Shown: piece by piece, positions 1,361 through 8,581 of the stretch
Layout of the letters: the number at the start of each line of letters is the position of its first letter
Position numbering within the stretch: the stretch's first letter is position 1
Origin: an archaeon
GTDB lineage: Archaea > Hydrothermarchaeota > Hydrothermarchaeia > Hydrothermarchaeales > BMS3B
NCBI GenBank assembly: GCA_026989875.1
Contig: JALSIP010000010.1
Span: forward strand, 1 to 33,808
DNA length: 33,808 nt
Reading direction: 5' to 3'
Translations under genes and position numbers: made by a program
Notes under the pieces: generated by a model
What the model was told of the DNA's origin: nothing
Database searches by the model: none
The model's input: only the letters and a program-made list of their open reading frames with translations

Positions 1361-1612
1361 CTAATCGCCGCGAAGAGCCTTAAGCTTTTCGCTGCCCACG
1401 CACTTCTCGGCGTACTCACACCAGTTTATGCACAGGTTCTCCCGGGTTTTCCTCACCACGGTGCCGCACTCCTCGCACTCAGCCTCGGTCTCATCACTCC
1501 AGATCTCAACCTCGGCTTTGCACTTCGGGCAGCGCACGTACTCCGGCTTGGGCCGCTTTATCTCGGCACTTCCAGGGCAGCTCGCCCTTATCCTCTCAAT
1601 ATCCTCCACCAT
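1361..1612 (-). CDS. Small zinc-ribbon protein
   Basis: 83 aa with YVRCPKCKAEVEIWSDETEAECEECG (CxxC...CxxC), then CINWCEYAEKC. Starts immediately after the stop of the 46-aa ORF (TGAATG). Confidence 0.75.
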   Translation of the reverse strand: MVEDIERIRASCPGSAEIKRPKPEYVRCPKCKAEVEIWSDETEAECEECGTVVRKTRENLCINWCEYAEKCVGSEKLKALRGD

Positions 1613-1753
1613 TCACTCAACCTCCTGTCTCTTACCTGAGAGGCATGCAGAGCATGCCCCCCTGGTAAAGTGGCTGCTGCACACCGCTCTTCCGCAAAGT
1701 GTGCACGTGTGCACCGCCGGTTTGCCGCATATCGCACACACCCCGGCGAGCAT
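1613..1753 (-). CDS. 46-aa Cys/His zinc-finger (B-box/HIT-like) protein, absent from the ORF track
   Basis: Manual translation: MLAGVCAICGKPAVHTCTLCGRAVCSSHFTRGACSACLSGKRQEVE. CxxC-HxCxxC-CxxH-CxxC spacing. Stop and start codons abut both neighbours (TGAATG at each junction). Confidence 0.75.
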   Translation of the reverse strand: MLAGVCAICGKPAVHTCTLCGRAVCSSHFTRGACSACLSGKRQEVE

Positions 1754-2083
1754 TCACCTCTCCCCCAGATGGCTCTCCAGCTTCTCTGCCAGCTCCTCCA
1801 GCATCTCCACAGCCATGAACTCTGTTTTCTCCGTCGCTCTGAGCTTTGCCTCAAGCACCCTCCTGCCATAGCTCTCCAGCACCATTCTGCGCTCCTCCAC
1901 CGCCTCTTTCAGCTCCCTGAGCCAGTACTCCAGTTCCGACAGAAGGGATGCGCACTCCTCGCACTCCTCATGTGCCCCCCTTCTGAGCTCCTGCAGGCGT
2001 TGCTCAAACTCCCGCAGCAGCCCCGGGCTCTCTTCCGTACCTTCTCCTGAGCGCACTCCTTCGCAGCACCTGCCAGGTGTCAC
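1754..2083 (-). CDS. Predicted coiled-coil protein of unknown function
   Basis: Up to 109 aa, Glu/Leu/Arg-rich (EFEQRLQELRRGAHEECEECASLLSELEYWLRELKEAVEERR). The first ~26 codons overlap the rSAM ORF, so the true start is probably downstream of 2083. Confidence 0.6.
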   Translation of the reverse strand: MTPGRCCEGVRSGEGTEESPGLLREFEQRLQELRRGAHEECEECASLLSELEYWLRELKEAVEERRMVLESYGRRVLEAKLRATEKTEFMAVEMLEELAEKLESHLGER

Positions 2084-3290
2084 CTCTCACAATCACCTCA
2101 AAGGCATGCCTTATAATCCTCACATAATACTCGCAGTAGTGACTTCTGACATCCATTCTGCCATGCATCGCCTGCAGCTCTGCCGGGCATGGGTTGCCGC
2201 AGATGTTCCTCAGGGTGCAGGTGCTGCACCCCTCAATCTCCTCCACCCTCCTGGCTCTCACTGCCCTGAAGGGCTCCGACGCCAGCACTCCCTCCAGCCC
2301 GTGCTCAAGCAGGTTTCCGCCAGCAAACTCACCCAGGCCTATGAACTCGCCGCAGGGGTATGCGGTGCCGTCTGCCGTAACTGCAAGAAACCGCCTACCC
2401 GCGCCGCAGGGTGATATATCGCACATAAGAACCCTCGCCGAGGGTGCGAGGATGCCCAGCATTATGTTCGCAAAGTCCCCGACCACGAGTCTCTTTCCAG
2501 TCTGCTTAGTGAGCTCTATTGCACGCTCAACAGCCTCTATGAAGCTGGCAGCCATGCGCTCCGGGGAGGGCATGAGCACCCTGCCCCCCTCGCTGGTTCC
2601 GCGCACGGGGTTCATGAGGCACCTGCTCACACCCATGGAGTGCAGGAACTCCACCATCTCCGGCAGCTGGCTGCAGTTCCGTGAGGTTATGGTGGTTATA
2701 ACGCACAGTCTCGGGTAGCCGGCGAACCACTCCAGTGCCTGTGAGACTCTCTCAAAATGCCCCTTACCCCTCAGGGAGTCGTTCACCCGCTCATCCGGCG
2801 AGTCCAGAGACAGCCCAACGCTTACACCCCTCTCCACCAGGTAGCTCACGTCCTCCTCTTCAAGCAGGGTGCCATTGGTCTGGATTCCGAAGCTGAGCTC
2901 GTGGCGGTAGTCGTCCATGACCTCCATAAGCGTGCCCTTCTGCAGCATGGGCTCACTGCCGTGAAACACCACCGCCCTCAGCCTATCTGCAGCGGCGTCA
3001 AGCACATCCCTGAGCTCTTCTTCCTTCATGTTTCTGCCCCTTTCTCTGTGCTCTCTGGGCAGGTAGCAGTAACTGCACGAGCGGTTGCATGCGTCGGTGG
3101 GGTTCAGGTAGAGAAGCACCGGCTCAAGCCCGAACCTGAGCCTTTCCATCTCCCTCTCAAGCGCCTCCCGCACCCGCTCATGAAACTTCTCCAGCTCCTC
3201 AAGCTCGCCCCAGCCCCAGAATACAGTCCCGGGCTCTATCCAGAGCCTCCTATCACCTGCTCTGAGCTCCTGCATTATAACCTGCTCCAC
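2004..3290 (-). CDS. Radical SAM / SPASM-domain protein, putative peptide-modifying enzyme
   Basis: CNRSCSYCYLP (CxxxCxxC) radical SAM motif. C-terminal SPASM-like Cys pattern (PCGAGRRF...AYPCGEF...GCSTCTLRNICGNPCPAE...HYC). The track start is GTG at 3290; ATG at 3275 with upstream GGAG is an alternative. Confidence 0.87.
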   Translation of the reverse strand: MEQVIMQELRAGDRRLWIEPGTVFWGWGELEELEKFHERVREALEREMERLRFGLEPVLLYLNPTDACNRSCSYCYLPREHRERGRNMKEEELRDVLDAAADRLRAVVFHGSEPMLQKGTLMEVMDDYRHELSFGIQTNGTLLEEEDVSYLVERGVSVGLSLDSPDERVNDSLRGKGHFERVSQALEWFAGYPRLCVITTITSRNCSQLPEMVEFLHSMGVSRCLMNPVRGTSEGGRVLMPSPERMAASFIEAVERAIELTKQTGKRLVVGDFANIMLGILAPSARVLMCDISPCGAGRRFLAVTADGTAYPCGEFIGLGEFAGGNLLEHGLEGVLASEPFRAVRARRVEEIEGCSTCTLRNICGNPCPAELQAMHGRMDVRSHYCEYYVRIIRHAFEVIVRGDTWQVLRRSALRRRYGREPGAAAGV

Positions 3291-3302
3291 GCCGCCGGGG
3301 AC

Positions 3303-3395
3303 TCAGAAGGGTGACTCTTCATCATTCATGGAGTAGTGGGTCAGTCCTGCACCTGCATATCTGCACTCAAACCTGACACTGCACACCTCATCCAT
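3303..3395 (-). CDS. 30-aa small peptide, candidate radical SAM substrate/precursor, absent from the ORF track
   Basis: Manual translation: MDEVCSVRFECRYAGAGLTHYSMNDEESPF. SD GAGGTGG (3402-3408) 6 nt upstream of the ATG; TATA-like CTTTTAAA (plus strand 3428-3435). It is the first ORF of the rSAM transcript. Confidence 0.68.
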   Translation of the reverse strand: MDEVCSVRFECRYAGAGLTHYSMNDEESPF

Positions 3396-3401
3396 CTCCA
3401 A

Positions 3402-3435
3402 CCACCTCAGTATATCTCACGCGGCGACTTTTAAA
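3402..3435 (-). promoter_or_regulatory. Promoter and Shine-Dalgarno of the peptide/rSAM operon
   Basis: Minus-strand TTTAAAAG TATA-like box (3428-3435) followed by GAGGTGG SD (3402-3408). Confidence 0.6.
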
Positions 3436-3450
3436 GCTTTTTCCCACACC

Positions 3451-4257
3451 GTGGAGCTAATTAATACTGCTATGCCAAAAAAGTATTACTACGTTATTAC
3501 GTGTGCTGGGGGTATGAGTGGCGAGCTGCTGTCTCTTGTGGCGCTCTCTGCGGGGCTCAGGCACGGCATAGACTGGGACCACATAGCGGCGATAATGGAC
3601 ATAACCGCGGTGCAGAGGAGCAGGTGGCGGGGGGTGATGCTCAGCTTTGTTTACGCACTGGGGCACGCCACCGTGGTTGCGGTTCTTGCGATAGCTGGCG
3701 TAACCTTGGGGCTGGCGCTCCCGGAGGGCTTGGATGGGGTGATGGAGAAGCTTGTGGGACTTACGCTGCTCGTGCTGGGGGGTTATGTGGTGTATGCTCT
3801 GCGCACCAGCAGGAGCTTCAGGCTGATGCCTCGCTGGCAGATAATTGCTGCGGCAGGCTGTGGGGTTGTCAGGCGACTTACAGGGCGCAGCCTGCATGTG
3901 GCTCAGGGTGTGCGTGGCTATGGTGGTGTCTCAGCCTACGCCATAGGCATGATTCATGGCATAGGCGCGGAGACTCCGACCCAGATAATGCTGTTCAGCA
4001 TAGCCCTGAGTGCAGGCGCAGCGGGTGGCAGGGAGGCTGCGGTGCCTCTCATCCTCTTCTTCATATCTGGGCTGGTTTTGATGAACACCTTCATGGGGGT
4101 GCTCGGCTCCCTGGTCTCCGCAACCCGCAGAGAGAGGGTGTACAGAGCTCTTGCCCTCATAACCGCCACGGGCAGCATAGCTCTGGGGCTGATTTTCATA
4201 GCGGGTGGAAGCGCGTACCTGCCTGACCTGCAGGCAATGGTGGAGAGTACCTTATGA
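3451..4257 (+). CDS. NiCoT-like nickel/cobalt transporter
   Basis: Hydrophobic, with the signature LRHGIDWDHIAAIMDITA (H-x4-DH-x2-A-x-D). Internal ATG at 3514 (MSGELLSLVALSAG) is a likely alternative start. Confidence 0.78.
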   Translation: MELINTAMPKKYYYVITCAGGMSGELLSLVALSAGLRHGIDWDHIAAIMDITAVQRSRWRGVMLSFVYALGHATVVAVLAIAGVTLGLALPEGLDGVMEKLVGLTLLVLGGYVVYALRTSRSFRLMPRWQIIAAAGCGVVRRLTGRSLHVAQGVRGYGGVSAYAIGMIHGIGAETPTQIMLFSIALSAGAAGGREAAVPLILFFISGLVLMNTFMGVLGSLVSATRRERVYRALALITATGSIALGLIFIAGGSAYLPDLQAMVESTL

Positions 4258-6600: not shown

Positions 6601-7380
6601 ATGCATCTCAGAAAGCTGCTTGAGGAGCTGCTTGAGGGCAGGCTGAGCATAGAGGAAGCAGAGCGCCGGCTGAGGCTTCTCAGCTACGAGGAGCTCCGCC
6701 ACACTCTGCTGGATGTCAGCCGTGAGGAGCGGGCAGGTGCGCCTGAAGCGGTGCTGGCGGAGCACAAGAGCACCTCAGCGCTTGTTGAGATAGCCGAGAG
6801 GCTCCTTGAGAGCAGGGGGAGGTGCATTCTCACACGTCTGCGTGAGGAGCAGCTTGAGGTGCTTGAGAAGCGTTTCAGCCCTCACGTCAGGGTGGAGGCA
6901 CATCCTGAAGCTAAGATGATGATTCTCAGAAAGCCGGGCTTTGTTCTGCATGAGACCGGGGGCAGGGTGGCGGTGCTCTGCGCCGGCACCTCTGACATAC
7001 CCGTGGCAAAGGAGGCGGAGCTGATAGCCAGGGAGATGGGCTGCAGGGTCTGGTTCTTCCCGGACGTCGGCATAGCGGGGCTCCACAGGCTCATGCCTGT
7101 CATGGAGAAGCTTGCCGAGGCAGATGTTGACGTGGTGGTGGTGGCTGCTGGCATGGAGGGTGCGCTTCCAGGGGTGGTCGCGGGGCTGGTTGATGTGCCC
7201 GTGGTGGGGCTTCCTGTTTCAACGGGCTACGGCATGCATGGCAGGGGCGAGACCGCACTTTTTGCCATGCTCCAGAGCTGCTCACCCGGGATAGCGGTGG
7301 TCAACATAGACAACGGCTTCGGTGCTGGCGTGCTTGCAGGGTTAATTGCCAACAGGGCGGCAAAGTTCAGAAAAGCTTAG
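6601..7380 (+). CDS. larB: LarB-like nickel pincer cofactor biosynthesis protein (AIR carboxylase-like)
   Basis: CAGTSDIPVAKEAE...DVGIAGLHRLMP...VVVVAAGMEGALPGVVAGLVDVPVVGLPVSTGYG...NIDNGFGAG. SD GGTGAGG upstream. Confidence 0.92.
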   Translation: MHLRKLLEELLEGRLSIEEAERRLRLLSYEELRHTLLDVSREERAGAPEAVLAEHKSTSALVEIAERLLESRGRCILTRLREEQLEVLEKRFSPHVRVEAHPEAKMMILRKPGFVLHETGGRVAVLCAGTSDIPVAKEAELIAREMGCRVWFFPDVGIAGLHRLMPVMEKLAEADVDVVVVAAGMEGALPGVVAGLVDVPVVGLPVSTGYGMHGRGETALFAMLQSCSPGIAVVNIDNGFGAGVLAGLIANRAAKFRKA

Positions 7381-8581
7381 CAAGCTCCGCACTAACCAGC
7401 CTCTGCACCTGTCTGAGGGGCAGGGAAAGCGCCTCAGCGAGCCGCCTGAGCTCCTCGTACTCCGGCTTGGCACTCACCACCTCACCTGCTGCATTTCTTG
7501 CAACCTTCACCCTCAGGGAGAACCTTCTCCCCAGAAGCTCCAGCTCCACGGTCTCCATCCTGCGCTCCAGCACGAAGCGCATGCTCATCCTGCAGCACCT
7601 CACCCCCAGCGTGCCCAGCTCCCGCATCATCAGCTCAGCAAGCTCATCCTCCCTCCCGGGTTTGCACACCACCTGAACCAGCATGGAGGGGCGGTTCTTC
7701 TTAGTCAGCCCCTGAAACACCTGAACATCAAGAGCCCCCGCTTCCATGAGCTTCCCCACAGCATGCCCCACGAGCTCACCGCTTACGTCGTCAACGCTGG
7801 TCTCAAGCAGCGCAATCTGCTCCTTTTCCAGGCTGCAGGAGGTGCAGAGGTGTAGCTGCAGCATGTTGGGGGCTGCCTCAAGCTCCCTGCTCCCCGCACC
7901 CCTGCCGGTGCTCTCAACCCGCATCACCGGCAGCTCCTCCACGAACTCGTCAGCTAAGCAGGCGAGCAGCGCTATGCCCGTGGGTGTGGTCAGCTCGCCC
8001 CCGTGTGTGCTCAGGAAGGGTATGCTGAACATCCTGAGCACCTCCTGCACCACAGGCACAGGCACAGAGAGCTCTCCGTGAGAGGTTTCAATCCTGCCCC
8101 TGCCGGTGTTCACAGGCGCTGAAAGCACGGTGCAGCCGAAGAGCTCCAGCGAGTCAAGCAGCGCTGCTGTGCCCAGAATGTCCAGCAGGGTGTCGGCGCT
8201 GCCCAGCTCATGGGGCTCTGCCGAGCCGTGCACCGCCCTCTCCGCCTTTATGAGCAGCTCAAGCACATCCTCCGCAAACTCCACCGCAGGGTTGCTCAGG
8301 CTCAGCCTGGCAGCAGCCGAGCCCAGCACCTCCTGCATCTCATCCCAGCTCTCAAGCCTGGCGGCGGTGTAGGTGGCAACGCCGGTGCATGCGATGCCCT
8401 TCCTGGTGCATCTCTCCACCTCAACCCTCAGCTCCCCCCCTGCAAGCTCTGAAATCACACCAGCGCACATCTGGAGCCTCTCCTCCGGTGCTCCGAGCTC
8501 CAGCAGTGCACCTAAGAGCATGTCCCCGCTTATGCCGGAGACGCTCGGGTCAGCCACGAGAATCCTGCCCATGAGGGGCAT
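7367..8581 (-). CDS. larC: LarC-like nickel insertion protein
   Basis: GISGDMLLGALLELGAPEE, TPTGIALLACLADEF, LLETSVDDVSGELVGHAVGKLMEAGALDVQVFQGLTKKNRPSMLVQVVCKP. Single uninterrupted ORF. Confidence 0.9.
   Translation of the reverse strand: MPLMGRILVADPSVSGISGDMLLGALLELGAPEERLQMCAGVISELAGGELRVEVERCTRKGIACTGVATYTAARLESWDEMQEVLGSAAARLSLSNPAVEFAEDVLELLIKAERAVHGSAEPHELGSADTLLDILGTAALLDSLELFGCTVLSAPVNTGRGRIETSHGELSVPVPVVQEVLRMFSIPFLSTHGGELTTPTGIALLACLADEFVEELPVMRVESTGRGAGSRELEAAPNMLQLHLCTSCSLEKEQIALLETSVDDVSGELVGHAVGKLMEAGALDVQVFQGLTKKNRPSMLVQVVCKPGREDELAELMMRELGTLGVRCCRMSMRFVLERRMETVELELLGRRFSLRVKVARNAAGEVVSAKPEYEELRRLAEALSLPLRQVQRLVSAELAKLF

Follow-up and report, generated by a model that had tools for sequence, protein, structure and literature searches.

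A putative archaeal CbpA/CbpB peptide and maturase pair and its predicted link to vitamin B12

Does a 30-aa open reading frame lying directly upstream of a SPASM radical SAM enzyme gene in an archaeal genome encode the substrate of that enzyme, and if so, in which pathway would the modified peptide act? The question arises from a 33,808-nucleotide stretch of the genome of a hydrothermal-vent archaeon (Hydrothermarchaeota), a stretch referred to here in its entirety as the window, in which the original prediction had proposed such a precursor and maturase pair. The features concerned are as follows.

3303-3395, minus strand: cbpA, 30-aa precursor peptide (TIGR04164 match, conservation upstream of cbpB, third-position bias)
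3396-3435, minus strand: 5' region of cbpA (TATA-like GCTTTAAAAG and GAGGTG Shine-Dalgarno)
2004-3290, minus strand: cbpB, radical SAM/SPASM peptide maturase (TIGR04163, PF04055, PF13186, AlphaFold model)
3451-4257, plus strand: NicO-type nickel/cobalt transporter gene, divergent to cbpA (PF03824, 37.5 bits)

The peptide gene and its enzyme

The product of cbpA is MDEVCSVRFECRYAGAGLTHYSMNDEESPF, and the signals first described for its gene were all recovered: a Shine-Dalgarno sequence (GAGGTGG) spaced 6 nt from the ATG and, farther upstream, the TATA-like box, with a comparable layout in a congener (G001). An alternative TTG start is located two codons ahead of the ATG. Comparison with two same-genus homologues showed 1/0/10 and 1/1/10 changes at codon positions 1/2/3, such that 10 of 11 and 10 of 12 changes fall on the third position, and each comparison comprised 9 synonymous and 2 non-synonymous codons. 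As variation within the genus is almost wholly confined to third codon positions, the codon pattern indicates that the open reading frame at 3303-3395 is a real gene; the synonymous/nonsynonymous check proposed with the original prediction therefore favours coding.

For cbpB, comparison with relatives makes an ATG at 3275 the more likely start in place of the GTG at 3290. Profile searching of its product gave 494.1 bits against NCBIfam TIGR04163 (cut-off 375; profile positions 14-426 of 428), with PapB as the next best NCBIfam family at 117 bits, and the enzymes of seven diverse relatives also exceeded the TIGR04163 cut-off. Pfam matches were obtained to PF04055 and PF13186. The radical SAM and SPASM cysteine motifs that had been read from the neighbouring gene are both present, as CxxxCxxC at C72/C76/C79 and as a full SPASM set (C294, C299, C317, C359, C362, C368, C372 and C390), and these residues are invariant in the 12 sequences of the phylum and in 56 relatives. 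The AlphaFold model (mean pLDDT 92) has CteB (5why/5wgg), a thioether-forming maturase, and anSME as its nearest PDB folds; identity to the CteB structures is about 20%, and the profile search agrees with a CteB-like placement. A Pfam search of CbpB found no PqqD/RRE match, and its N-terminus consists only of a small beta segment and a helix. Together with the nearly leaderless nature of the peptides, this suggests that CbpB recognises the peptide core directly.

The system with the nearest solved structures, SCIFF/CteB of the ranthipeptides, likewise couples a SPASM radical SAM enzyme to a short Cys-containing peptide encoded next to it. In contrast to SCIFF and most sactipeptides, where several donor Cys residues mark the sactipeptide/ranthipeptide class, CbpA has one conserved Cys, and the cbpAB genes occur in a B12 context.

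Membership and conservation of the peptide family

The 30-aa peptide matched a single NCBIfam family, TIGR04164 (CbpA), at 16.9 bits (E 0.003), a score that falls under the cut-off of 35 and explains why the archaeal peptide was missed by annotation. Only two (L096, L042) of ten natural CbpB-adjacent peptides exceed this cut-off; the ten include peptides from cob operons and from loci with a B12 riboswitch upstream. The TIGR04164 model therefore appears narrow, and a score below its cut-off is compatible with membership. At L096, the peptide preceding CbpB was recognised as CbpA at 55.6 bits, which links both families. Since enzyme and peptide each point to the CbpA/CbpB families, the assignment is unlikely to be accidental, and we identify the locus, on these profile matches, as a cbpA-cbpB pair of the TIGR04164/TIGR04163 type (rSAM_cobopep / cobo_pep); a search of the NCBIfam precursor and maturase families, proposed at the outset, thus recovered a named pair. 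The archaeal locus resembles that pair in its above-threshold enzyme and in peptide core, position and gene order; it differs in the low peptide score, in the GAGLTHY and C-terminal SPF segments and in not lying beside cob genes.

A GTDB-wide scan for CbpB yielded 466 relatives, and locus analysis covered the best 80. The original prediction had been staked in advance on conservation of the peptide upstream of orthologous radical SAM genes, and the core C-x(n)-G-L-[ST]-H-[YF] was found there in 75 of these best 80 loci, drawn from archaea and many bacterial phyla; away from cbpB it occurred once in 2.3 million strand-bases of the 80 loci. Three of the five loci without an intact core (L061, L066, L093) are short contig ends, and at L035 an apparent frameshift splits the motif. 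The fifth, from a Thermodesulfobacteriaceae MAG, encodes a CbpB of 646 bits (L048:10001-11326) and has no recognisable cbpA in the locus DNA examined. That Cys, Gly, Leu and His never vary in the collected peptides is partly imposed by the search pattern; a looser pattern without the Cys requirement recovered identical peptides. In the phylum, cbpA was placed just upstream of cbpB at all 12 CbpB loci. When 23 genomes of the phylum were scanned independently with a DNA pattern, 11 matches were obtained in 10 genomes, each adjoining cbpB and none in a CbpB-negative genome; in the eleventh CbpB genome (G012) the motif takes the form NGLSHY.

Counterparts of the peptide also occur in bacteria, so the family is wider than the archaeal one originally envisaged. 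Archaeal peptides, the shortest having 27 residues, typically read SYR-x-EC-...-GAGLTHYVM-...-SPF, while SYHLKCAKTANGLTHFVMYGDVPKKKMPL exemplifies those of Nitrospirota and Omnitrophota and AYRRRCRQIGTGLSHYILL those of Desulfobacterota. The core is almost invariant across Hydrothermarchaeota, Nitrospirota and Desulfobacterota, with Phe as its aromatic residue in 32 of 76 peptides. The proposed substrate core CSVRFEC...Y..GAGLTHYSM was upheld in part: Cys11, Gly and the GL[ST]H[YF] segment are conserved, whereas Cys5 is Arg in both congeners, and a Cys5-Cys11 core was accordingly rejected. In MDEVCSVRFECRYAGAGLTHYSMNDEESPF the conserved parts are C11...GAGLTHY and the C-terminal SPF of the archaeal type. 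An explanation in which the 30-aa open reading frame arose by chance and CbpB acts on something else could draw on the sub-threshold family score in this genome, yet the conserved core upstream of cbpB and the codon pattern rule it out for practical purposes, and we rejected it as having a negligible probability. The central interpretation, that the peptide is the substrate of the adjacent radical SAM enzyme, is supported by these comparisons of sequence.

Two cbpAB copies with near-identical peptides were observed in one genome (G010; L016 and L019 on contigs C65 and C278), reflecting either duplication or mixed strains. In Hydrothermarchaeum, another radical SAM gene related to cbpB lies near cbpAB (L047, about 7088-8580, minus strand).

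Cobalamin riboswitches and gene neighbourhoods

In bacterial genomes, cbpAB is physically linked both to cobalamin genes and to cobalamin riboswitches. Of 18 stand-alone bacterial cbpAB loci tested, 16 (L054, L055, L057, L064, L065, L068, L077, L080, L081, L084, L087, L092, L095, L096, L097 and L099) have an upstream cobalamin riboswitch matching Rfam RF00174 at 52-102 bits, its 3' end lying about 90-210 nt ahead of the cbpA start; none was found at the other two (L058, L062). Locus L084 belongs to a cultured bacterium, Desulfacinum hydrothermale. Where cbpAB lies within a cob operon, the riboswitch stands at the operon head. We regard the riboswitches as the strongest functional evidence, as they are independent of gene neighbours. 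Cobalamin riboswitches also govern transporters and B12-independent isozymes, so that this control leaves the exact step unfixed.

Neighbouring genes of the 80 loci were clustered and the clusters then named (CobD, CbiP, CobS, CbiB and BtuFC from sequence, without a profile search). A CbiO-type ATPase was found near cbpAB in 28 loci, in a cluster that includes some BtuD-type ATPases, followed by CbiQ (21), CbiA (18) and CobT (15). Further clusters comprised CbiM, corrin methyltransferases, CbiP, CobD, CobA/BtuR, CobU, CobS, CobC and BtuF/BtuC-type proteins. The cobalamin context is clear in bacteria and in some archaea, with CobT directly 3' of cbpB in seven archaeal loci (Methanoliparum, Methanolliviera, Methanophagales and relatives).

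Two other neighbours were recorded. Six archaeal loci with CobT behind cbpB (L033:8903-9820, L028, L030, L032, L034 and L037) encode, divergently to cbpA, a protein of some 305 aa that is encoded downstream in L052; it has a ribbon-helix-helix domain at its N-terminus and an unassigned C-terminal part, AIR-synthase-like by eye, and is possibly a B12 regulator. At L072:11269-11919, in a salvage-type operon, cbpB and a BtuF-type gene flank the gene of a diphthamide-synthase-like ATP pyrophosphatase (PF01902).

In the window, no cobalamin riboswitch was found and no cob genes lie next to cbpAB; CbiC and CobT are located elsewhere in the genome. The B12 link for this archaeon is therefore carried over from relatives. 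The NicO gene is beside cbpA only in this genome and elsewhere in relatives, so that the adjacency was rejected as a conserved feature and is suggestive only as a functional hint. A downstream 109-aa gene was likewise rejected as an operon partner, being absent behind cbpB in both congeners. Downstream of cbpB, 1361-1753 (minus strand) encodes two small putative zinc-finger proteins, one of 46 aa (zf-HIT-like) and one of 83 aa (zinc-ribbon-like), both from weak matches.

Predicted function in cobamide assembly and salvage

As the bacterial pair sits in B12 operons or directly behind B12 riboswitches, the predicted modified peptide very probably helps cells to make or recover vitamin B12. Genome-wide B12 gene content bears on which step is involved. 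CbiC was present in 43 of 50 CbpB genomes, and within the phylum in 11 of 11 CbpB-positive versus 5 of 12 CbpB-negative genomes (Fisher p 0.005, ignoring phylogeny). A CobT-family match was obtained in 59 of 61 CbpB genomes, those of Archaeoglobi being weak (19-56 bits); the remaining two have CbiC, and all 61 genomes checked thus possess CbiC or a CobT-family gene. Seven CbpB genomes were devoid of CbiC and CbiD, one of which (G087) was dropped as a salvage-only genome because it has full CbiF. The other six, also without full CbiF, all have CobT, and salvage-type neighbours (BtuFC and CobT/U/S/C types) surround cbpAB in four of them (L046, L051, L072, L078); most of these six are metagenome assemblies whose completeness is not stated, and some of the absences could be due to sequence missing from the MAGs. 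With moderate confidence, this pattern argues against a role limited to cobalt supply for ring synthesis. Since CobT is kept where CbiC, CbiD and CbiF are absent, we consider, again at moderate strength, that what CbpB genomes have in common may be the assembly and salvage of cobamides rather than just ring synthesis or cobalt insertion.

We think it probable that CbpA, once cross-linked by CbpB, serves inside the cell as a small peptide that handles cobalt or corrinoid while cobamides are assembled and salvaged; both the chemistry and the exact step are what we infer. After binding the nearly leaderless CbpA, CbpB would draw on the 5'-deoxyadenosyl radical and its auxiliary Fe-S clusters to form a cross-link, either a thioether or a C-C bond, that includes the invariant Cys, the GL[ST]H[YF] segment or both. 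The mature peptide would remain intracellular, as leader, export and protease genes are not conserved, and would handle metal or corrinoid through the invariant His and modified Cys as likely cobalt ligands, acting in cobamide assembly and salvage. In riboswitch-bearing bacteria, CbpA would be made under cobalamin scarcity.

Alternatively, the modified peptide could be a cobaltophore that captures Co(II) and delivers it to CbiMNQO/NicO transporters or to cobaltochelatase for corrin ring synthesis. This would suit the frequent position of cbpA directly behind CbiM-CbiQ-CbiO, the divergent NicO gene in the window, ring synthesis by most CbpB carriers themselves and the quality of Cys and His as cobalt ligands; however, the six CobT-retaining genomes described above, four with salvage neighbours and subject to the same reservation on MAG completeness, and the lack of a conserved export gene or peptide transporter make it rather unlikely.

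A precursor of a PQQ- or mycofactocin-like redox cofactor, supplying electrons for the reduction of corrinoid Co(II) to Co(I) before adenosylation, seems more doubtful still. PqqA/PqqE and mycofactocin share with CbpA/CbpB a SPASM enzyme and a near-invariant short peptide kept across phyla, a property foreign to antibiotics that suggests a cofactor-like role, and in 9 loci the next gene encodes the corrinoid adenosyltransferase CobA/BtuR. In contrast to those systems, CbpB has no PqqD-like RRE match, the peptide has no conserved Glu-Tyr or Val-Tyr pair, and the neighbourhood clusters of the 80 loci include no conserved protease or dehydrogenase partner; with Phe so frequent at the aromatic position, a Tyr-derived quinone is not general. 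SPASM enzymes often make bacteriocin- or signal-type products, but a secreted product of this kind, B12-regulated for ecological reasons, is highly improbable given a core that hardly varies between Hydrothermarchaeota, Nitrospirota and Desulfobacterota, the absence of immunity, export and protease genes around cbpAB and the embedding of cbpAB in housekeeping B12 operons.

The NCBIfam label 'cobo' suggests that curators had noticed a cobalt or cobalamin link; our literature search, limited to papers available without subscription, found no publications on CbpA/CbpB. The locus can be regarded as a new, unannotated member of a named but uncharacterised family, for which the B12 assignment is the valuable part. 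The riboswitch and operon evidence assigns CbpA/CbpB a pathway, and with the archaeal members the family comes to include peptides missed by current models. More tentatively, the modified peptide may be a dedicated corrinoid or cobalt ligand or carrier, an unrecognised and riboswitch-controlled component of B12 biosynthesis and salvage in archaea and bacteria. B12 synthesis is usually regarded as fully catalogued; if the proposed role is true, a widespread modified peptide co-regulated with it would indicate that the handling of cobalt or corrinoids involves a factor so far overlooked.
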